DNA of 60,701 nt from Akkermansiaceae bacterium (GTDB lineage Bacteria > Verrucomicrobiota > Verrucomicrobiia > Verrucomicrobiales > Akkermansiaceae), in NCBI GenBank assembly GCA_903906515.1, contig CAIVKO010000149.1:1-60701 (forward strand), in the 5' to 3' direction. A program made the position numbers and the translations under genes. This document shows, in pieces, positions 16,622-53,992 of the stretch. Within the stretch, counting starts at the first letter, position 1; each line of letters begins with the position of its first letter. The notes under the pieces are model-generated. The model saw only the letters and a list, made by a program, of their open reading frames with translations. It ran no database searches and was not told where the DNA came from.

Positions 16622-17821
16622 TTACCGAATTTCCATCGCCTCCTTGATCGATGTGCAGAGATATTCCATGTTGCGGGAGGTGATTCCGGCGACGTTGATG
16701 CGGCCTCCGCCGACGATGTAGATGCTCTTGTTTTCCTTGAGGAACTTCACCTGGGCGTCGCTCAGGCCGCTGAATGAAAACATGCCTTTCTGGCGTGAAA
16801 TGAACGAGTAATCACCGGGAACCCCATGATCCGCCAGCGCGGTGACGAAGCGGGTGCGGATGGCTGCGATGTGGTTGCGCATGCCGTCCAGTTCGTTCAC
16901 CCATTGTTGGTGCAGCGCGGTGTCGGTCAGGATGGTTTTTACGATCAATCCGCCGTGGGCGGGCGGGTTCGAGTAGTTTACGCGGATAGCGATCTCCACA
17001 TTGCTGAATGCGCTGGCTGCGACTGCGGATGACTCCGCGACCAGCGTGAGGGCGCCGGTGCGGTCCTGATAGAGGCCGAAATTTTTCGAGAACGAGCTGG
17101 CGATCATGAACTCCGGACACTTCGCCGCAAGCGCCAGAACTCCGGCGCGGTCCTCGGCCAGGCCGTCTCCATAGCCCTGATAGGCGAAATCCAGGAATGG
17201 CAGCCATCCACGGCGCGCGGCGATTTCCGCGACGATTTCCCATTGCGCCGCATCCAGATCCACGCCGCTCGGATTGTGGCAGCAGGCGTGAAGCAGGACG
17301 ATGTCACCAGCTGGTATGGCTTCGAGAGTTTCGCGCATCCGGGTGAAATCCAAGCCCTTGCCCACGGCGTCGTAATACGGGTAATCCGCGCTGCCAAATC
17401 CCGCTGCGGCGAAGACGCCCTTGTGGTTCGCCCAAGTTGGCGAGCTCATCCATACGGTGGCACCGGGCAGCGCTTTTTTTAGGAAATCCGCTCCCACCCT
17501 CAAGGCGGCGGTGCCTCCCGGCGTGTGGGCGGTGCGCGCGCGTCCGGATTTCACCACTTCATGCCCGGCCCCGAAAACCATTTCCTGCACACAGGTGCCG
17601 TATTCCGGAGCTCCGGAGATCGGCATGTAGGATTTGGTGGTGGCGGATTGCAGGATCAACGCCTCCGCCGCCTTCACCGAGGCGAGGATCGGCGTGTTTC
17701 CTGCGTCGTCCTTGAATACTCCTACTCCGAGGTTGACCTTGAGTGGATTGGGGTCGTTCTTCCAGGCATCAGTTAGGCCAAGGATGGAATCGGGCGGGGC
17801 GGCGGGCAGTGTGTTGAACAT
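16622..17821 (-). CDS. Class I aminotransferase, aspartate/aromatic amino acid type
   Basis: Start chosen at MFNTLPAAPPDSILGL, giving 399 aa, the usual AspC/TyrB length. The frame stays open 115 codons further upstream, but that part is Arg/Gln-rich and overlaps the divergent gene. PLP enzyme transferring the amino group of Asp or aromatic amino acids to 2-oxoglutarate. The lysine lies in SSFSKNFGLYQDRTG (near residue 246), and LLHACCHNPSGVDL carries the substrate/PLP-binding N-P-S-G. Phe/Tyr versus Asp preference is not resolved. Monocistronic; convergent with metX. Confidence 0.92.
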   Translation of the reverse strand: MFNTLPAAPPDSILGLTDAWKNDPNPLKVNLGVGVFKDDAGNTPILASVKAAEALILQSATTKSYMPISGAPEYGTCVQEMVFGAGHEVVKSGRARTAHTPGGTAALRVGADFLKKALPGATVWMSSPTWANHKGVFAAAGFGSADYPYYDAVGKGLDFTRMRETLEAIPAGDIVLLHACCHNPSGVDLDAAQWEIVAEIAARRGWLPFLDFAYQGYGDGLAEDRAGVLALAAKCPEFMIASSFSKNFGLYQDRTGALTLVAESSAVAASAFSNVEIAIRVNYSNPPAHGGLIVKTILTDTALHQQWVNELDGMRNHIAAIRTRFVTALADHGVPGDYSFISRQKGMFSFSGLSDAQVKFLKENKSIYIVGGGRINVAGITSRNMEYLCTSIKEAMEIR

Positions 17822-40897: not shown

Positions 40898-42073
40898 ATG
40901 AATATCCTCGTCGCCAACCTCGGTTCGACCTCATTCAAATACCGCCTCTTCCGCATGGACGAGAGCGGTGGCGAGGTCGTGGCCAAGGGCGGTTACGAGC
41001 GGGTGTCCGATTATGCGGCCGTCATTGACGATGCCATCGCTACCTTACAACGCGATGGAGTCATTACCGGCCCGGATGATATCGATGCGGTCGGTTTCAA
41101 AACCGTGCTCGGCAAGGATCTCAGCGGTTGTGTCGTTGCGGATCAAAAGGTGATCGATGCGTTGGAAGGTTTCGCCGCAGTCGCGCCGGCTCACAATCCA
41201 CCGTATGCAAACGGCATCCGCCAGTTTGCAAAATCACTGCCAGGCGCGAAACTCGTCGCTCTCTTCGAGACCGCTTTCTATCAATGGACCAGCAGCGCCT
41301 CGGCCAATTATGCTATTCCCCGCAGTTGGCGCGACATCGGCATTCGTCGCTACGGTTTCCATGGTGCCAGTCACAAGTTCATCGCCGAACGCTCCGCCGA
41401 ACTCAGCTCACGCGATGATGTGGCGGAAATCGCCCGACGCCTCTATCTTGATGGACCGCGTCCCATTTCAGGCAAACCTTTCCGCGTGATTTCCTGCCAT
41501 CTCGGCGGATCCAGCTCTGTCACCGGAATCCTCAATGGAGTCGCCATCGGCACCAGCATGGGTTTCTCGCCACAAAGCGGACTGCCACAGAACAACCGCG
41601 TCGGAGAACTCGACTCCGGGGCCATTCCCTATGCCATGCGCACTCTCGGCATCTCGCTTGATGAGGCCGAACGCCAGCTCACCAAGGAATCCGGACTGCT
41701 GGGCACCTCCGGAATTTCCAACGACATCCGCGATGTCAAACAAGCCGCTAAAGACGGCAACCCGGACGCACAACTCGCCCTCGACCAACTCGTTCACTCG
41801 ATCCGTCATTGGATCGGTGCCTTCATGCTCGAACTCGGTGGGATCGATGCGTTGGTCTTCACCGCCGGCATCGGCGAAAACGGCCCGGATATCCGTGCGT
41901 CCGTCTGCGCCAATCTGGAAAACTTCGGAATCCGCATGGATTCCGTGAAAAACGACGCCTGCCAGGCCGTCGAGGCGGACATCAGTTCCGCCGACTCCTG
42001 CGCGAGGATTTTCGTGATCCCCGCCAACGAGGAACTCGTGCTTGCCCGCGAGGTCTTCCGCAAACTCTCCTGA
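40898..42073 (+). CDS. ackA: Acetate/propionate kinase of the BMC operon
   Basis: 391 aa, ASKHA fold. Converts acyl-phosphate plus ADP to carboxylate plus ATP, the step after PduL. Starts MNILVANLGSTSFKYRLF (the N-x-G-S-x-S-x-K phosphate-binding motif, here with T for the second Ser). YGFHGASHKF supplies the catalytic His, VISCHLGGSSSVTGIL is the adenosine/phosphate loop, and LVFTAGIGENGPDIR the ATP-binding GIGEN. Located inside the shell gene cluster, consistent with a role coupled to the compartment even if it acts in the cytosol. Confidence 0.95.
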   Translation: MNILVANLGSTSFKYRLFRMDESGGEVVAKGGYERVSDYAAVIDDAIATLQRDGVITGPDDIDAVGFKTVLGKDLSGCVVADQKVIDALEGFAAVAPAHNPPYANGIRQFAKSLPGAKLVALFETAFYQWTSSASANYAIPRSWRDIGIRRYGFHGASHKFIAERSAELSSRDDVAEIARRLYLDGPRPISGKPFRVISCHLGGSSSVTGILNGVAIGTSMGFSPQSGLPQNNRVGELDSGAIPYAMRTLGISLDEAERQLTKESGLLGTSGISNDIRDVKQAAKDGNPDAQLALDQLVHSIRHWIGAFMLELGGIDALVFTAGIGENGPDIRASVCANLENFGIRMDSVKNDACQAVEADISSADSCARIFVIPANEELVLAREVFRKLS

Positions 42074-42119
42074 ATACCACTCTGAACACTGAAAACTAAC
42101 AAACCAACAAACTAATACC

Positions 42120-42422
42120 ATGGCCAAACAAGCAGTAGGACTTCTCGAAACCCGCGGTCTCGCATGCCTCGTCGTCGGCGTTGACGCGATGCTCAAATCC
42201 GCAAACGTCGAACTCGTCGGTCCGATGAAACAAGTCGGCAACGCTCTCTGCAATGCAGTCGTTTCCGGTGATGTCGCCGCCGTCAAGGCAGCCATCGATT
42301 CCGGTGCGGCCGCTGCCGTCGCAGCAGGCGGCGAAGTCATCAGCGCGCATGTCATCGCTCGTCCGGACGATGCGATCGACGGCGTTTTGCCCAAGGAAGC
42401 AGCCCGCGCCCCGCGCAAGTAA
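42120..42422 (+). CDS. BMC-H shell protein 3 (hexamer, atypical pore)
   Basis: 100 aa. Starts MAKQAVGLLETRGLACLVVG, then KSANVELVGPMKQVGNALCN, helix GDVAAVKAAIDSGAAAAVAAG and strand ISAHVIARPDDAID. The pore position reads VGNALCN instead of the usual G-S-G or G-G-G, placing Asn, Ala and Cys at or near the pore. A longer C-terminal tail (KEAARAPRK) ends the protein. Located between ackA and the first pentamer gene, with no palindrome before it and one after it. Confidence 0.95.
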   Translation: MAKQAVGLLETRGLACLVVGVDAMLKSANVELVGPMKQVGNALCNAVVSGDVAAVKAAIDSGAAAAVAAGGEVISAHVIARPDDAIDGVLPKEAARAPRK

Positions 42423-42497
42423 GTCATCGGTCAGCAGTCATTAGTCATTGGGCAAGAGTTGACTCTTTCGCCATTGGCTAATGACTTACGACCCATG
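42421..42497. repeat. Repeat-armed palindrome between BMC-H3 and BMC-P1
   Basis: Left: GTCATCGGTCAGCAGTCATT then AGTCATTGGGCAAGAGT. Right: ACTCTTTCGCCATTGGC then TAATGACTTACGACC. The halves are imperfect inverses; same unit type (AGTCATTRG) as the palindrome at 40401-40485. Confidence 0.75.
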
Positions 42498-42517
42498 TCA
42501 CATAACCCCTAACTCAT

Positions 42518-42826
42518 ATGTTCCTAGCCGAAGTCATTGGACAAGTCGTCTCGACCAAGAAAGACGAACTCATGGTGGGCAAAAAACTCCTGCTGCTTCG
42601 TCCCAAGCTGGTCGATGACAAGGATCCCACCAAATTCAAGGATGGCCAGAGCACCATCGTCGCCATCGACACCGTCGGTGCCGGCGAGGGGGAACTTGTG
42701 ATGTTCTGCCAGGGCAGTTCCGCCCGCGCCGCCCATGGCCTCAAAACCATCCCGGTGGATGCCGCCATTATCGCCATCGTCGATCGTGTCGAAGTCCACG
42801 GAAAAACCCTCTACAAAGGCGGGTGA
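42518..42826 (+). CDS. BMC-P shell protein 1 (EutN/CcmL pentamer)
   Basis: 102 aa. Caps the vertices of the shell. Begins MFLAEVIGQVVSTKKDELM, has LLLLRP, VAIDTVGAGEGELVMFCQGS and IPVDAAIIAIVDRVEV, the full EutN/CcmL pattern (A-x-V-x-G-x-V-x-x-T ... D-x-V-G-A-G-x-G-x-x-V). Followed 11 bp later by the left arm of the GxxExxY element. Confidence 0.95.
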   Translation: MFLAEVIGQVVSTKKDELMVGKKLLLLRPKLVDDKDPTKFKDGQSTIVAIDTVGAGEGELVMFCQGSSARAAHGLKTIPVDAAIIAIVDRVEVHGKTLYKGG

Positions 42827-42837
42827 AGGTTTTTTTG

Positions 42838-43272
42838 AACCACAGATTACACAGATTTCTCAGATTATGAGCGAAGAGAACCTTCATGCTGAACTAACCC
42901 AACGCATTATTGGTATTGCGATGGAGGTTCATCGTGAACTTCGCAATGGCCTTGATGAAAAATTATATGAAAATGCCATGTGTATCGATTTTGCAGACCA
43001 AAACATTTTTTTTGATCAACAAAAGAGATATACGGTGTTTTATAAGAAACGTCCCATTGGGAATCTCATTCCTGATTTAATTATCGATAACTCTGTTATC
43101 GTTGATGCCAAAGTAGTTGAATCCTTCAACGATGTTCATCTTAGTCAAATGATCGGCTATTTGAAAATTACCGGGCTCCGAGTCGGACTTCTACTCAATT
43201 TTAAGCACGCGTCTCTCAAAATCAAAAGAATAACCATTTAATCAATCTGCGAAATCTGAGTAATCTGTGGTT
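42838..43272. mobile_element. Candidate GxxExxY cassette bounded by inverted repeats
   Basis: Left arm 42838-42866 (AACCACAGATTACACAGATT, then TCTCAGATT) and right arm 43244-43272 are inverse copies matching at 27 of 29 bases. The arms abut a single gene: its ATG follows the left arm directly and its stop lies 2 bp before the right arm. The 435-bp unit sits between BMC-P1 and the aldehyde dehydrogenase, is much richer in A+T than its neighbours, and has gene-less relatives at 46797-46902 and 53731-53838. Mobility is inferred; no target-site duplication is obvious. Confidence 0.65.
42867..43241 (+). CDS. GxxExxY protein
   Basis: 124 aa. The family motif is GLDEKLYENA (G-x-x-E-x-x-Y). The core LIPDLIIDNSVIVDAKVVE ... 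QMIGYLKITGLRVGLLLNF resembles a PD-(D/E)xK nuclease-like fold (D, D-x-K and the Q-x-x-x-Y-L motif). Function is not established for the family. The start at 42867 is preferred because the upstream frame is the inverted-repeat arm. Codon use is far more A/T-rich than in neighbouring BMC genes, pointing to recent transfer or different constraints. It interrupts the otherwise purely BMC operon. Confidence 0.85.
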   Translation: MSEENLHAELTQRIIGIAMEVHRELRNGLDEKLYENAMCIDFADQNIFFDQQKRYTVFYKKRPIGNLIPDLIIDNSVIVDAKVVESFNDVHLSQMIGYLKITGLRVGLLLNFKHASLKIKRITI

Positions 43273-43308
43273 AAACCAATCCATTACCCCAAGACCTTCC
43301 CCACTCTC

Positions 43309-44790
43309 ATGAATCTCGATCAAGCCCAGCTCAAAGTCATCGTTGAATCCGTAGTTGCCCGCCTTGCTTCCGCGCAGGGACAACAAGCACCGGCACCAAC
43401 AGCGCCCGCGCCCGCCGCCAAGGCTTCCTGTGGCTGCGGTAGTTCATCCTCTGGCGGAGAGCGCGGTGTATTCACCTGTGTGGAAAAGGCCGCCCAAGCC
43501 GCGAATGACGCGCATCTCAAGATGAAGAAACTCGGCGTGGCTGGCCGCGCCAAGGTCATTGAGATCGTGAAGTCCCTCGCCGTCGGCAACGCCGAAGCCT
43601 GGGGGAAATTCGAGATGGAGGAAACCAAGATCGGCCGTCTCGACCACAAGATCGGCAAGCTCCTCATCACCAAGAACGTTCCCGGTACCGAGTGGCTCCA
43701 ACCTTATGCGATGAGCGGTGACGGTGGTATCACACTGGAAGAATATGCGCCCTTCGGAGTGATCGGTGCGATCCTTCCCGTTACGCATTCAGTCCCTACT
43801 CTAACTGGAAACGTCATCAACATGGTGGCTGCCGGAAACTCGATCGTTTTCAACCCGCACCCCGGTGGTGCCCGCAGCGCTGCCATGGCGGTGCGTGCCT
43901 ACAACGAGGCGATCGTTCATGAGCTCGGCATCGACAATATCATCACCACCATCGAGTCGCCTACGCTGGAATCGTTTGATGCCATCTGCAAAAACCCCTT
44001 GATCCCGCTGCTTGCCATTACCGGCGGCCCCGCCGTTGTGGGTGCCGCGATGAAATCCGGCAAGCGTGCCATCTGCGCGGGCCCTGGAAATCCGGTCGTC
44101 GTGGTCGATCAAACCGCCGATCTCGCCAAGGCCGCACGCTCGATCATCGAGGGTGGAGCGTTCGACAACAACCTGCTCTGCATCGGTGAAAAGGTCGTCT
44201 TTGTGATCGGGTCCGTCTTCAACCGCTTCTGCGAGGAACTCACCAAAGCCGGTGCCGCGCGTATCAACGCACAGCAACTCGAAAAACTCACCGCCGCCGC
44301 ATTCAATATCACACCGGGAACAGGCGGCGGTTGCGCGCACGCCTCCGTGAACCGCGCGCTCGTCGGAGCGGATCCATCGAAACTCGCCGAATACGCCGGA
44401 GCCACCATTCCTAACGGAACGCAGCTCCTCTTCGCCGAGACGGATGCCGACCACCTCTTCGTGCAGGAAGAGCAGATGATGCCGATGATGCCAATCGTCT
44501 CCTGCCCGGACTTCGAAACCGCGGTGCGTCTCGCTAAACAAGCCGAGCATAACTACCGCCACTCCGCCATCATCCACACGCTGGACGTCAACCACATGAC
44601 CTACATGGCCAAGGAAATGGACACCACCATCTTTGTGAAAAACGGCGCATCTGTCGCCGGTCTTGGCCTCGGCGGTGAGGGTTATCTCTCCTATTCCATC
44701 GCCACCACCACCGGCGAAGGCATCACCACCCCCAAAACCTTCACCCGCATCCGCCGCTGCGTCCTCGTCGAAAACCTCCGTATTATTTGA
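43309..44790 (+). CDS. CoA-acylating aldehyde dehydrogenase of the BMC
   Basis: 493 aa. Oxidises an aldehyde with NAD+ and CoA to acyl-CoA. Catalytic Cys291 in NNLLCIGEKVVFV; NAD-binding region includes PVTHSVPTLTGNVINMVAAGN and GPGNPVVVVD, typical of the PduP/EutE-type branch. The N-terminus (MNLDQAQLKVIVESVVARL) is an amphipathic encapsulation-peptide-like helix followed by an Ala/Pro linker with a CGCG cluster before the enzyme body. The likely substrate in this locus is lactaldehyde, as known for PVM BMCs that use fucose or rhamnose. It follows the GxxExxY element by 36 bp. Confidence 0.93.
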   Translation: MNLDQAQLKVIVESVVARLASAQGQQAPAPTAPAPAAKASCGCGSSSSGGERGVFTCVEKAAQAANDAHLKMKKLGVAGRAKVIEIVKSLAVGNAEAWGKFEMEETKIGRLDHKIGKLLITKNVPGTEWLQPYAMSGDGGITLEEYAPFGVIGAILPVTHSVPTLTGNVINMVAAGNSIVFNPHPGGARSAAMAVRAYNEAIVHELGIDNIITTIESPTLESFDAICKNPLIPLLAITGGPAVVGAAMKSGKRAICAGPGNPVVVVDQTADLAKAARSIIEGGAFDNNLLCIGEKVVFVIGSVFNRFCEELTKAGAARINAQQLEKLTAAAFNITPGTGGGCAHASVNRALVGADPSKLAEYAGATIPNGTQLLFAETDADHLFVQEEQMMPMMPIVSCPDFETAVRLAKQAEHNYRHSAIIHTLDVNHMTYMAKEMDTTIFVKNGASVAGLGLGGEGYLSYSIATTTGEGITTPKTFTRIRRCVLVENLRII

Positions 44791-44793
44791 AGA

Positions 44794-44957
44794 AGACGGA
44801 AGACTCTGAGACAGAAGACAGAAGATAAGAATTTTCCCAATCCATCACCATTCAATGACAGTAAGATCACCATCATCTCCGAGGTCACTTCACACTGGTT
44901 GCCGTGCATCGCTTGCGTCCGGTCTTCTGTCTTCTGTCTAATCATCTTCTGTCTTTA
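44794..44957. repeat. Repeat-armed palindrome between AldDH and BMC-P2
   Basis: Left arm ~44794-44834 carries GACAGAAGACAGAAGATAAG; right arm ~44922-44955 carries GTCTTCTGTCTTCTGTC and CATCTTCTGTC. The halves are inverse copies of the unit AGACAGAAG around a ~90-base centre. The right arm ends just before the BMC-P2 start codon. Confidence 0.8.
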
Positions 44958-44959
44958 CC

Positions 44960-45214
44960 ATGATCCCCGCCCAAGTCGTCGGCCACGCCGTCAGCAGCCA
45001 TTCCCATCCCTCCCTCAAGGGATGCAAGATGCTGTTGTGCCAGCCGCTCGGGTTCGGCGGAAAACCGGAAGGCGCCCCGATCGTCGCCATCGACTTGTTC
45101 GGAGCCGGTCTTCACTCGAAGGTCTTCGTCTCCACCGACGGCGTCGGTGCCCGTCATCTCGTCCACGACGAGAAATCCCCAGTTAGAAATTTCATCCAAG
45201 GAGTGGTCGACTGA
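44960..45214 (+). CDS. BMC-P shell protein 2 (short EutN/CcmL pentamer)
   Basis: 84 aa. MIPAQVVGHAVSSHSHPSL, then MLLCQPLGFGG, IVAIDLFGAGLHSKVFVSTDG and FIQGVVD. The order of strands fits EutN/CcmL, but it is shorter than the other two pentamers and reads D-x-F-G-A-G where they have the D-x-(V/M)-G-A-G turn. Confidence 0.93.
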   Translation: MIPAQVVGHAVSSHSHPSLKGCKMLLCQPLGFGGKPEGAPIVAIDLFGAGLHSKVFVSTDGVGARHLVHDEKSPVRNFIQGVVD

Positions 45215-45349
45215 GACAGAAGACCGCTCCGCTCCCAGACAGAAGACAGAAGATGAAGAAACCACTATTACCCGCACGAATCAGCTACAGCAGTTGCTAC
45301 AACATGCCTGTTCCAGTCTTCTGTCTTCTGTCTCCAAATCTTCAGTCTT
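45213..45349. repeat. Repeat-armed palindrome between BMC-P2 and BMC-P3
   Basis: Left ~45213-45252 carries GAGACAGAAGACC and AGACAGAAGACAGAAG; right ~45314-45349 carries GTCTTCTGTCTTCTGTC and CTTCAGTCTT. Same family as 44794-44957 but with a different, shorter centre. Confidence 0.8.
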
Positions 45350-45353
45350 AAAC

Positions 45354-45668
45354 ATGCGCGTCGCACAAGTCATCGGCCGGGTCACTCTGAGCCTCCAGGA
45401 TCCCTCCCTCAAAGGAGGACGCTGGCTTGTGTGCAATCCGCTGGATGCCGTGCATTTCAACACCGCCTGCCAGACGGCTCCTCCGCTTTCCTCCCAATTC
45501 TCGATGGTTGCCTATGACAACATGGGTGCCGGGGAAGGGGATATCGTGGGCATCGTCGAGGGAGCTGAAGCCACCGCGCCGTTTGATCACGATATTCCGA
45601 TCGATGCCATCACCGTTGCCATTTTTGATTCACTAAATTACCAAGCCGCAGATTCCAATCCATCCTAA
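45354..45668 (+). CDS. BMC-P shell protein 3 (EutN/CcmL pentamer)
   Basis: 104 aa from MRVAQVIGRVTLSLQDPSL; the long upstream frame is palindrome DNA. Core strands WLVCNPLDA, MVAYDNMGAGEGDIVGIVEGA and IPIDAITVAIFDSL match EutN/CcmL. The third pentamer gene; PVM-type loci are known to carry several. Only 12 bp separate it from the aldolase gene. Confidence 0.94.
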   Translation: MRVAQVIGRVTLSLQDPSLKGGRWLVCNPLDAVHFNTACQTAPPLSSQFSMVAYDNMGAGEGDIVGIVEGAEATAPFDHDIPIDAITVAIFDSLNYQAADSNPS

Positions 45669-45680
45669 CATTCAAATCCC

Positions 45681-46766
45681 ATGAGCAAGAAATTATTCAC
45701 CGCCGCCGATATCGAAGCCCTTCTCAAGTCAGGTAGAACCGTTGCTGACATTCCCGCCGGAGCCGTGCTCACACCATCGGCCAAGGACGTGCTTCGCGAC
45801 GGCCTCGGTCCGGTCCGTGCCGGTGGTGGCTCGTCCGTTTCTGTCAGTGCCTCTGCGGAGCCGATCCTGCCTAACTACGAATATCACTGGACTCCCGGAT
45901 CAGACCCCAAGACCCCTGCGGAAATCCAAGCTTTCTTCAACTCACCGGCCATTGTTGAAATCAAGCAGCGCATGGTCGATATCGGCAAGCGGATGTGGGC
46001 TCGTGAATACACCGATGGTAATGGCGGCAACCTCACCATCCGTGTCGGTGACAACCTCGTGCTTTGCACGCCCACTCTCGTTTCCAAGGGATTCATGACG
46101 CTTGAGCAGATGTGCCTTGTCGACATGGAAGGCAAACAACTCGCCGGGAAATTCAAGCGAACCTCCGAGTGCATGACCCACTTGGCCATCATGAAGCGCC
46201 AACCCAAGGCCAAGGCCTGCTGCCACGCGCATCCGCCGCACGGCACTGCTTTCGCCGTCGCAGGCGTGCAACCGCCGACCTGCATGATTCCGGAAGCGGA
46301 AGTTTTCCTCGGTCAGATCGGTCTGGCGGAATATCAAACTCCCGGTTCTCCCGCCAATGCCGAGGTTGTCGGTAAGGCTGCCGTCGATCACATGGCTGTG
46401 CTCATGGTCAACCACGGTGTGATCACCTGGGGCAAGGACATCGAGGACGCTTATTGGAAAATGGAGAATGTGGAGTCGTATTGCAAAACCGTCTGGGTGG
46501 CATCCCAACTCAAGGGCGGCAGCCTGCTCACCATCACTGGTGGTCAGGCCAAGGAACTCATTGCCCTGCGCAAAACCCTTGGCATGGACGACAAGCGCGC
46601 CAACTGGCAGGAATGCCAACTCTGCGACAACTCGGATTTCCAACCTGGCACCGTTTGCCGCGTCCCGGATCAGGCCGCCCCATTATCCGGCAGCCCGAAG
46701 CTCGACCCCGAAGCGGAAAAACTCGTGCAAGCGCTCACCGACCAGATCCTGGCATCGATGAAGTAA
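45681..46766 (+). CDS. Class II aldolase of the BMC (fuculose/rhamnulose-1-phosphate type)
   Basis: 361 aa. Zinc-dependent aldolase expected to split a deoxy-ketose 1-phosphate to DHAP plus lactaldehyde. Zinc ligands are in CCHAHPPHGTAFA (~182-187) and VNHGVITWG; a likely catalytic Glu lies in RTSECMTH (FucA Glu73 region). N-terminal 80 residues (MSKKLFTAADIEALLKSGRT ...) are outside the aldolase fold, begin with a short amphipathic helix and end in a Ser/Ala linker, a possible encapsulation peptide. The C-terminal ~80 residues add a C-x-x-C segment (ECQLCDN). Last gene of the BMC operon. FucA versus RhaD substrate is not resolved. Confidence 0.9.
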   Translation: MSKKLFTAADIEALLKSGRTVADIPAGAVLTPSAKDVLRDGLGPVRAGGGSSVSVSASAEPILPNYEYHWTPGSDPKTPAEIQAFFNSPAIVEIKQRMVDIGKRMWAREYTDGNGGNLTIRVGDNLVLCTPTLVSKGFMTLEQMCLVDMEGKQLAGKFKRTSECMTHLAIMKRQPKAKACCHAHPPHGTAFAVAGVQPPTCMIPEAEVFLGQIGLAEYQTPGSPANAEVVGKAAVDHMAVLMVNHGVITWGKDIEDAYWKMENVESYCKTVWVASQLKGGSLLTITGGQAKELIALRKTLGMDDKRANWQECQLCDNSDFQPGTVCRVPDQAAPLSGSPKLDPEAEKLVQALTDQILASMK

Positions 46767-46796
46767 GCGCTGTGTTTATCCCGAAAACTGAAATTG

Positions 46797-46902
46797 AACC
46801 ACAGATTTCACAGATTGACACAGATTTTGAAGAGGTTGTGAAAACGATCCTGAAACCTATTTGGTGAATCTTTCAATCTGAGTAATTTGAGCAATCTGTG
46901 GT
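46797..46902. repeat. Palindrome element related to the GxxExxY cassette arms (gene-less)
   Basis: Starts AACCACAGATTTCACAGATT and ends AATCTGTGGT, the same arms as 42838-43272, but the 40-odd-base centre (GAAGAGGTTGTGAAAACGAT ... ACCTATTTGGTG) holds no gene. The centre recurs inverted at 53731-53838. Confidence 0.8.
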
Positions 46903-46963
46903 CAAATTCCAACGCCTTGACCCTGCAACTTCGGATTCCGGGTTAATCAGAGCGTCCGCTCGG

Positions 46964-47782
46964 TTATTCCACCGCGTGGATGCCGATCTGATGCTTGTCG
47001 CATAGCTCCTTGATGGCGGATTTTTCCAGCAGGAGTGTCTTGCGGGCTTCGATGGCGATGGCGGAAACTCCCGCTGCGGCGCAAGTCTCGATGGTTTGCG
47101 GGCCGATGACCGGCACATCAAAGCGGAAATCCTGATTGGGCTTGGAAACTTTGACCAACATCACGTCCTTGCCGTGACCCATCTCGCCGCCACGGCGGAT
47201 GCAGGCGTTGGTGCCTTCGAACGCTTCCGCAGCAAGCACCGTCCCATGCCGGACCACTACGCTTTGGCCGATATCGAGTGCGCTGGTCTGTTTTGCGATA
47301 CGGTAACCGAACTCTGCATCGGCGAGTTGGCGTTTTTTGAATGCGGGACCGCAAACATACCCTGGCCCCGGCAGGTGATCTTCCAGGAAAGTCGTCGCGG
47401 ATAGCACCTCGATATTCTCTTTGCTGAGTTCGTCGGCGACGGCACCAAACAAAGTCTCCGCATTGCGCTCCTTCAGGCGGGCCAGAATCATCAACACCCG
47501 CAGGTCGGGACGTAGATCGAAGAGGTTTCTAGGCGAAATCTGGCCCATCATCACCGCCTCCGTGGTCCCCTCACGGCGGAAAAACCTGATCATTTTACCG
47601 AGTTGGCCGACGCGAAACCATTCGATGGCATCCGCCAGATCGGAGAGTTCCGGCCGGGTTTCTCCATGAAAGGCGGCCACCACCAACTTCACCCCGGGGG
47701 AATTGCGTCGCGCGGCAGCAATGAAAGTCTCCGGATAAACTCCGTTGCCTGCGATGATTCCGATGGTTCGTGGTTGGGCCAT
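46964..47782 (-). CDS. lpxI: UDP-2,3-diacylglucosamine pyrophosphatase, LpxI type
   Basis: 272 aa from MAQPRTIGIIAGNGVYPETF. Makes lipid X in lipid A synthesis in organisms that lack LpxH. Family features: IGIIAGNG at the start, VGQLGKMIRFFRREG, VMMGQISP, the conserved D-x-x-V-x-x-G-x-V pattern (DIGQSVVVRHGTVLAAEAFEGT), GKDVMLVKVSKPNQDFRFDVPVIG (quoted in two runs: GKDVMLVKVSKPNQD and FRFDVPVIG), and AIEARKTLLLEK. Located 44 bp downstream of a tRNA-Leu gene. Implies an LPS-type outer membrane. Confidence 0.92.
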   Translation of the reverse strand: MAQPRTIGIIAGNGVYPETFIAAARRNSPGVKLVVAAFHGETRPELSDLADAIEWFRVGQLGKMIRFFRREGTTEAVMMGQISPRNLFDLRPDLRVLMILARLKERNAETLFGAVADELSKENIEVLSATTFLEDHLPGPGYVCGPAFKKRQLADAEFGYRIAKQTSALDIGQSVVVRHGTVLAAEAFEGTNACIRRGGEMGHGKDVMLVKVSKPNQDFRFDVPVIGPQTIETCAAAGVSAIAIEARKTLLLEKSAIKELCDKHQIGIHAVE

Positions 47783-53654: not shown

Positions 53655-53992
53655 AAGAAGACGCAAGAGAAGAGGAATGCGCTCTTCTTTACCTGGATTT
53701 CGAAGTTACAGGGGTGATTAGTTGGATTTTAACCACGGATTACACGGAATGACACGGATTTAAGAATGCACCAAACAGGTTTGGGAATCATTTCCACAAC
53801 CTCTTCATAATCCGTGTTAATCCTTGAAATCCGTGGTTTTATATCGGTTTTCGGGCTTGAAAAATGATTCTGTCCAAAATGATTCTGTCATCCTCTTCAA
53901 TCACGGAAAAAGCGCAGAGCTGAATCCGATTTCGGCGATTTTCACCTCCGTTCTTGCGCGGATGGCCATGCAGCATTAAGCCTCTGTCCGCC
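53655..53992. other. Gap between leuB and dapL (338 bp)
   Basis: Holds an AGAAGAAGACGCAAGAGAAG-type simple repeat right after leuB, the palindromic element at 53731-53838, and ordinary sequence with no gene up to the dapL start. Confidence 0.7.
53731..53838. repeat. Palindrome element, inverted relative of 46797-46902
   Basis: Arms AACCACGGATTACACGGAAT and its inverse ending ATCCGTGGTT. On the minus strand its centre reads GAAGAGGTTGTGGAAATGAT then ACCTGTTTGGTG, nearly identical to the centre at 46797-46902, showing that the two are copies of one element in opposite orientation. Confidence 0.85.

Follow-up and report, generated by a model that had tools for sequence, protein, structure and literature searches.

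It is well supported that the GxxExxY gene (GXY) makes up a single unit with the inverted repeats that frame it, here called arms, and that dispersed arms of related sequence occur chiefly in carriers of the gene. The window, meaning the whole stretch of DNA that we analyzed, is 60,701 nucleotides from an Akkermansiaceae bacterium (contig CAIVKO010000149.1) whose genome is a draft of 265 contigs. We consider it about an even call that the unit is an arm-bounded selfish cassette, similar in its way of life to RAYTs and REPINs, with a different nuclease that would itself drive the dispersal of the arms. The relevant features of the window are:

42518..42826, plus strand: EutN-like BMC gene, upstream context
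42821..42837, no strand: outer left flank, an imperfect complement of 43273-43289, with which the inverted repeat reaches 46 nt (83%)
42838..42866, plus strand: left arm, AACC followed by three 9-nt-spaced units, CACAGATTA/CACAGATTT/CTCAGATT
42867..43241, plus strand: GxxExxY / PDDEXK_3 gene (GXY), 124 aa, predicted Cas4/RecB-like PD-(D/E)xK nuclease
43244..43272, minus strand: right arm, the left arm inverted, 27/29 identical
43273..43289, no strand: outer right flank, an imperfect complement of 42821-42837, with which the inverted repeat reaches 46 nt (83%)
about 43309..44790, plus strand: BMC aldehyde dehydrogenase (AldDH) gene, downstream context
46797..46904, plus strand: solitary hairpin of 108 nt with the same arm type and no gene, DNA fold z -3.4
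53731..53838, minus strand: second solitary hairpin of 108 nt, same family, opposite orientation, DNA fold z -6.8

A preliminary description of this DNA, made from its letters alone, reported 29-base arms with 27 matching positions around a single gene with no spare sequence, and the coordinates confirm it: the ATG (42867) abuts the left arm, and 2 bp separate the end of the stop codon (43241) from the right arm. A repeat finder carried the arms out to 46 nt at 83% (42821-42866 / 43244-43289). Also borne out were its statements that the cassette interrupts a BMC operon, where it sits between the EutN-like and AldDH genes, and that it is more A/T-rich than its neighbors (GC 0.35-0.37, versus about 0.53-0.62 on both sides). 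There is no second gene and no known transposase between the arms, PF13366 being the only match to the gene there, and no Rfam family matched in 42000-47500. The longest AldDH reading frame opens at a GTG at 43267, within the right arm (43267-43308), so automatic annotation may extend that gene into the arm; judging from the sequence, its start is likely the ATG at 43309.

The window protein belongs to PF13366 (PDDEXK_3; 118 bits against a cut-off of 22) and to TIGR04256 (GxxExxY; 131 bits, cut-off 35). Among 38 GXY sequences, G28, E31, Y34, D70, K82 and Y98 are invariant and E80 and Q94 nearly so; the window protein has D70, D80 (in place of E80), K82, Q94 and Y98. We take the D...(D/E)xK...QxxxY pattern of these proteins to be the Cas4/RecB-type motif. 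AlphaFold2 modeled the window protein with a pLDDT of 96.4. The best Foldseek match to the model was Cas4 SSO0001 (E 5.5e-4), and the same protein was the best PDB match in VIA (4ic1; Z 10.3, 2.6 Å over 96 residues), followed by chains of restriction-fold, exonuclease, AddAB and Hjc proteins, none of them above Z 8. A Cas4/RecB-like PD-(D/E)xK fold is confidently predicted from this model; it predicts a nuclease and is silent on the substrate. The PD-(D/E)xK-like core named in the preliminary description agrees with the conserved catalytic-type residues and with the predicted fold. Searching solved structures by sequence with the window protein gave nothing meaningful, and neither PF04754 nor PF12784 matched it at E 0.001.

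The likeness to Cas4/RecB-like nucleases is one of fold and of this residue pattern, and in contrast to Cas4, GXY is framed by arms. The Fe-S cluster of Cas4 uses four cysteines. The 124-aa window protein has one, so it should hold no Cas4-type Fe-S cluster. Separately, the accessible part of PMC8934634 places a GxxExxY-domain gene next to a reverse transcriptase of CRISPR-like type, at a spot that other software had called cas4, a call in line with the Cas4-like fold of GXY.

Framing by arms is common across bacteria. We assembled 80 named GTDB loci (chosen on protein alone, as the best 80 matches of one query type), 60 genus-search regions and loci returned by other searches, which together held 181 distinct GXY genes, 170 of them with usable flanks; the genes of the relatives set are not independent. 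Flanks were scored blind to any arm sequence: the 250 bp on the left were aligned locally with the reverse-complemented 250 bp on the right, and the best alignment score was taken, with a cut-off of 18. That score was reached by 112/170 GXY genes, compared with 2/134 neighboring genes and 11/508 permuted pairings. Both subsets contributed, with 66/95 from the window's own genome and its relatives and 46/75 from the named multi-phylum set. According to record titles, the armed named loci lie in Verrucomicrobiota, Planctomycetota, Acidobacteriota, Bacteroidota, Cyanobacteria, Anaerolineae, Hydrogenedentota, Sumerlaeota, Aminicenantes and several proteobacterial classes. On plasmids, GXY matched in 8 records, and three of the five inspected pass the inverted-repeat cut-off; one query of 50,697 phage records found no GXY, and the window protein had no PHROGs match. 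The proposal that arms and gene make a small selfish cassette therefore stands as far as the single unit goes (112/170 and 46/75 versus 2/134); the selfishness is what we infer.

Every GXY locus of six closed genomes was scored as well (1/30 could not be), and the armed rate was lower than in the first set: 14 of the 29 new loci reached 18 and 15/29 fell below it. At a cut-off of 15 the count was 21/29, with controls of 3/134 neighbors and 30/508 permuted pairings. A motif criterion, devised after the arms had been seen, found both arms pointing inward in 107/170 GXY genes versus 3/134 control genes. One criterion or the other was satisfied by 138/170 genes, and 10/170 lacked a strong inverted repeat and arm motifs alike. 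The GC content of armed GXY genes was below that of their flanks in 111/112 cases.

Twelve of the 170 genes (L092, L225, L072, L118 and others) have arm motifs of both orientations on each side, as though whole hairpins flanked them, and stacked arms occur in G006 (L046) and Baaleninema. From these hairpin-flanked and stacked cases, arms may be preferred targets.

Within the window's own genome, a TIGR04256 search returned five GXY genes. By inspection, inverted arms frame four of the five; the automatic score reached 18 for two, L001 and the window copy (L029), and was 16 for L004, 13.5 for L002 and 9 for L005. The preliminary description had expected arms of the AACCACAGATTACACAGATT type on the other copies and had counted a lack of arms against its idea. 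Arms are present on most copies, and it is their design that recurs; the units themselves differ from gene to gene (CGCCAAG, GCGGAG, CACAGATT and GCAGATG types). We therefore rejected identical arms on all GXY genes and regard the arms as a family of gene-specific sequences. L005 (G000:C96:30178-30495), whose longer frame encodes 271 aa, is a GXY relative that has no arms; it may have a different role within the family.

The common design, read by inspection, is an outer A(A)CC followed by three RC(NN)A(G/T) units about 9 nt apart. The arms often follow a T-run, have the same orientation at both ends, and are direct repeats of 9-nt-spaced units rather than palindromes. Their sequence follows that of the protein. 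Mean arm similarity was 0.23 for proteins 20-30% identical and 0.66 at 70-85% identity (Mantel Spearman 0.371, reached in 0/999 permutations), and the relation was also present in the named set of 46 (0.265, 0/999 permutations).

Arms also occur without the gene. A 19-base arm pattern matched 8 times in the window against a shuffled mean of 1.19, and 0/100 shuffles reached 8; the 8 include a shifted match inside the left arm and an isolated 2-mismatch match at 17374. Both solitary hairpins of the window fold better than shuffled sequences. Across the own genome, a 20-mer of the arm with up to 3 mismatches had 23 matches, versus 0 for the reversed control, and many of these are inverted pairs with a gene-less loop. 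Seven aligned hairpin copies, two of them in the window, define a family of about 170 bp whose outer ends are mostly conserved.

The same holds in distant genomes. The strict arm pattern, with 8/9 spacing, was applied to 20 GXY-bearing genomes of other phyla and matched 99 times in Baaleninema simplex (control, 1), 256 times in a planctomycete (control, 2) and 69 times in a gammaproteobacterium (control, 0); it had 0 matches in 6 of the 20 and 1-6 in six others. The commonest arm of Baaleninema is the one around its own GXY gene, and one GXY cassette of G172 has two arms that both match six dispersed copies exactly. Among the convergent strict arm pairs of four closed genomes, 27 have starts within 150 bp, the pairs at 419 and 423 bp both hold GXY, and a 1209-bp pair lacks it. 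We also surveyed 11 arm pairs with an inner spacing of 200-2000 bp and no counted GXY, in loci fetched mostly for GXY. Two of them (L059, L077) in fact hold GXY, and no small gene recurred in the remaining 9.

Single unpaired arms share a direction within a replichore in G169 (21/22; 1/2000 shuffles), where the direction mostly tracks sampled GC skew. The same arrangement was not significant in G172 (22/28; 225/2000), G345 (15/19; 1130/2000) or G203 (17/20; 628/2000), and some strict-pattern matches in this test look like coding noise. The one-genome strand bias may be compared with IS200/IS605 elements, which, in the portion of PMC6006769 available, have subterminal hairpins and a replication-tied target preference; theirs, in contrast, is an HUH transposase.

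Arm abundance follows GXY across genomes. Our sample of 288 Verrucomicrobiota genomes (163 with GXY, 125 without) held 3093 strict arm matches compared with 338 for the reversed control, with a median of 9 in GXY-positive and 1 in GXY-negative genomes. GXY was present in 114 of the 125 genomes with at least 5 strict arms and in 49 of the 163 with fewer. Within the 17 families of mixed state (198 genomes), the difference in arms was reached by 0/10,000 permutations, and again by 0/10,000 once 2 arms per GXY gene had been subtracted; the GXY-positive median was the higher in 16/17 families, or 11/17 after that subtraction. Correlations of this kind cannot give the direction of cause.

It could be that the arms are MITE-like and mobilized by some different enzyme (HUH/Y1, DDE or another), with GXY having settled between them to be carried along. 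Arm copies do exceed GXY genes in many genomes. Moreover, 6 genomes have at least 10 strict arms and no detectable GXY, and 4 of these (G196, G223, G330, G355) have Y1_Tnp, so arms can persist, or move, without GXY. Against this, Y1_Tnp did not predict arm abundance beside GXY (likelihood-ratio p of 0.11, versus 3.5e-21 for GXY), and 5 of the 15 genomes that have GXY and no Y1 carry at least 10 arms. An HUH (Y1) transposase as the driver is thus unsupported, Y1 being the only transposase class modeled. The arm sequence also tracks the GXY protein across phyla, and the only two strict pairs of cassette size (about 420 bp) in the four closed genomes both hold GXY, albeit in small numbers. We consider it rather unlikely that GXY is a passenger.

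If instead the nuclease drives its own arms, as we prefer, it would recognize them, probably while replication leaves them exposed in hairpin or single-stranded form, and would cut or nick at those places. Host repair or template switching might then copy a single arm, a pair of arms or the complete cassette to another intergenic site. GXY would in this way fill the role that RAYT transposases have for REPINs, by means of an unrelated nuclease. Armed GXY genes within co-directional pairs are mostly sense, and in the window a mere 40 bp, arm for the most part, separates the GXY ATG from the EutN stop, so the window GXY is probably expressed by read-through. Two points weigh against this reading. 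We know of no strand-transfer chemistry for a lone 124-aa nuclease, and among GXY pairs with at least 65% identity (which are not independent), 265 have a homologous flank, 70 do not and 8 could not be assigned, so most close pairs look vertically inherited or site-stable.

The analogy with REPs and RAYTs, which the preliminary description had raised, holds in part. As far as the accessible text of PMC3116915 describes them, REPINs and RAYTs resemble the GXY system in having short repeats, as singlets and inverted hairpin doublets, that lie outside genes and are tied to an enzyme. The GXY system shares the dispersed inverted hairpin doublets and a repeat abundance that follows the enzyme, independently of Y1. 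It departs from the same source in its enzyme, which is Cas4/RecB-like PD-(D/E)xK rather than a Y1 HUH transposase, and in its repeat, since a REP is palindromic and the GXY arm unit is a 9-nt-spaced direct repeat. Its arms also differ from gene to gene.

In print, the closest case that we came across of a MITE linked with this nuclease fold is the hupL MITEs of Candidatus Thiomargarita nelsonii, which their authors suggest, in the part of PMC4853749 available, are possibly the first PD-(D/E)XK_2-derived MITEs. These differ from the GXY system in their nuclease (PFAM12784/TIGR01784), in their 10-bp direct and 19-bp inverted repeats, and in coming from one organism. The open-access literature, which leaves most subscription papers outside its coverage, yielded nothing that connects GxxExxY with repeats of this kind. 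It names GxxExxY without a function, and PF13366 appears there in a paper available in part; TIGR04256 and the arm strings were absent from what was searched. One peptide string encoded by a repeat also occurs in an antimicrobial-peptide paper available in part.

A second alternative is that GXY is a toxic or antiphage nuclease and that the arms are regulatory or self-recognition hairpins unconnected with mobility. Precedent comes from the Rpn/YhgA-like proteins (transposase_31, PF04754), which, like GXY, are a small, mobile-looking PD-(D/E)xK nuclease family (PMC5350276, PMC10327210, each in part). Once called a transposase, Rpn is reported in the accessible part of PMC10327210 as an antiphage toxin-antitoxin system. 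According to the portion of PMC5350276 available, RpnA has DNA endonuclease activity with little if any sequence specificity reported, Rpn overexpression raises RecA-independent recombination, and a section heading refers to independent rpnC insertions at the same place. Rpn differs from GXY in its Pfam family, and an arm-framed architecture is not apparent in those parts of the two papers. The low GC and patchy presence of GXY would also suit a defense gene. On the other side, PADLOC gave weak Cas4-type matches to just two relatives and none to the window protein, the window arms enclose no second gene, and tens of gene-less arm copies per genome are not predicted by defense. We consider a defense or addiction role distinctly unlikely.

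Far less probable still is that the arms are hairpins that process or stabilize transcripts and that GXY is an ordinary accessory operon gene. What speaks for it is orientation. Of the 105 armed GXY genes with both neighbors seen, 54 are sense and 8 antisense within co-directional pairs, and 43 have convergent or divergent neighbors. Several species also keep GXY at the BMC site.

The BMC site itself argues against a host function of this kind. A DNA search of 59 genomes, the own genome included, matched 28, of which 22 could be read across the EutN-AldDH gap; 7/22 were occupied and 15/22 empty, with 6-146 bp. The empty site that had been sought in relatives was thus found, the gene is far from universal at this position, and GXY as a fixed operon member is rejected. 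Two more occupied sites, found through GXY searches, bring the count to 9/24, an addition biased toward occupied sites. Type I cassettes, with ACAGATT arms, are present in the own genome, G073 and G036 (with a shortened gene); type II, with ACTGA arms, in six genomes. With 9 occupied sites of two types known, the site is shared with other species and is not a private recent insertion.

In the AldDH tree, a clade of six (100/99) contains three type II sites, one type I and two empty; the whole tree asks for at least 7 changes among the three states, or 5 between occupied and empty, with 10/21 inner branches weak. By our own reading, G036 combines a type I left arm with a type II-like right arm, and the empty sites of G029 and G019 still hold sequence similar to the left flank of the type II site in G006. 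The mix of states and flanks fits turnover at one site; it could also have arisen from a single old insertion followed by losses and exchange. Empty sites exist, but their spacers are too diverged to place a junction for a target-site duplication.

Elsewhere GXY occurs in unrelated contexts, beside radA, ade and fabD-fabG (the last with a left arm only), with the same architecture across phyla, and there was no Rfam match in 42000-47500; these points again run counter to a host function. In Bacteroides finegoldii the cassette occupies the radA/FAD spacer, which in Parabacteroides is 13 bp and empty. The Phocaeicola massiliensis plasmid record (L356) has a different reading frame in that spacer, a possible shared insertion slot. 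Finally, that an AT-rich orphan gene merely has accidental or assembly-related inverted repeats, as a draft of 265 contigs might invite one to suppose, can be set aside, given the shuffled, reversed, permuted and neighbor-gene controls and the same architecture in single-contig genomes.

GXY, a gene of no known function, is present in over half of the sampled Verrucomicrobiota genomes (163/288) and in many further phyla, and some genomes abound in 9-nt-periodic intergenic repeats for which no owner has been named. The link between GXY and its arms gives both a testable role, that of a nuclease with a predicted, gene-specific substrate, and the pairing of arm and protein could supply compact sequence- or structure-specific nucleases. 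If the nuclease does drive its arms, then unrelated enzymes have given rise to the REP/RAYT way of life on at least two occasions, and repeats can be dispersed by a Cas4-like nuclease with no transposase involved. Only tentatively, as something we would sooner doubt than assert, do we extend this to a pan-bacterial class of minimal mobile elements, in which a Cas4-like nuclease and host repair would together spread the nuclease's own 9-nt-periodic arms and cassette. Such a class would account for much of the 9-nt-periodic intergenic repeat content of Verrucomicrobiota, Planctomycetota, Cyanobacteriota, Acidobacteriota and others, and would amount to mobility without a transposase.
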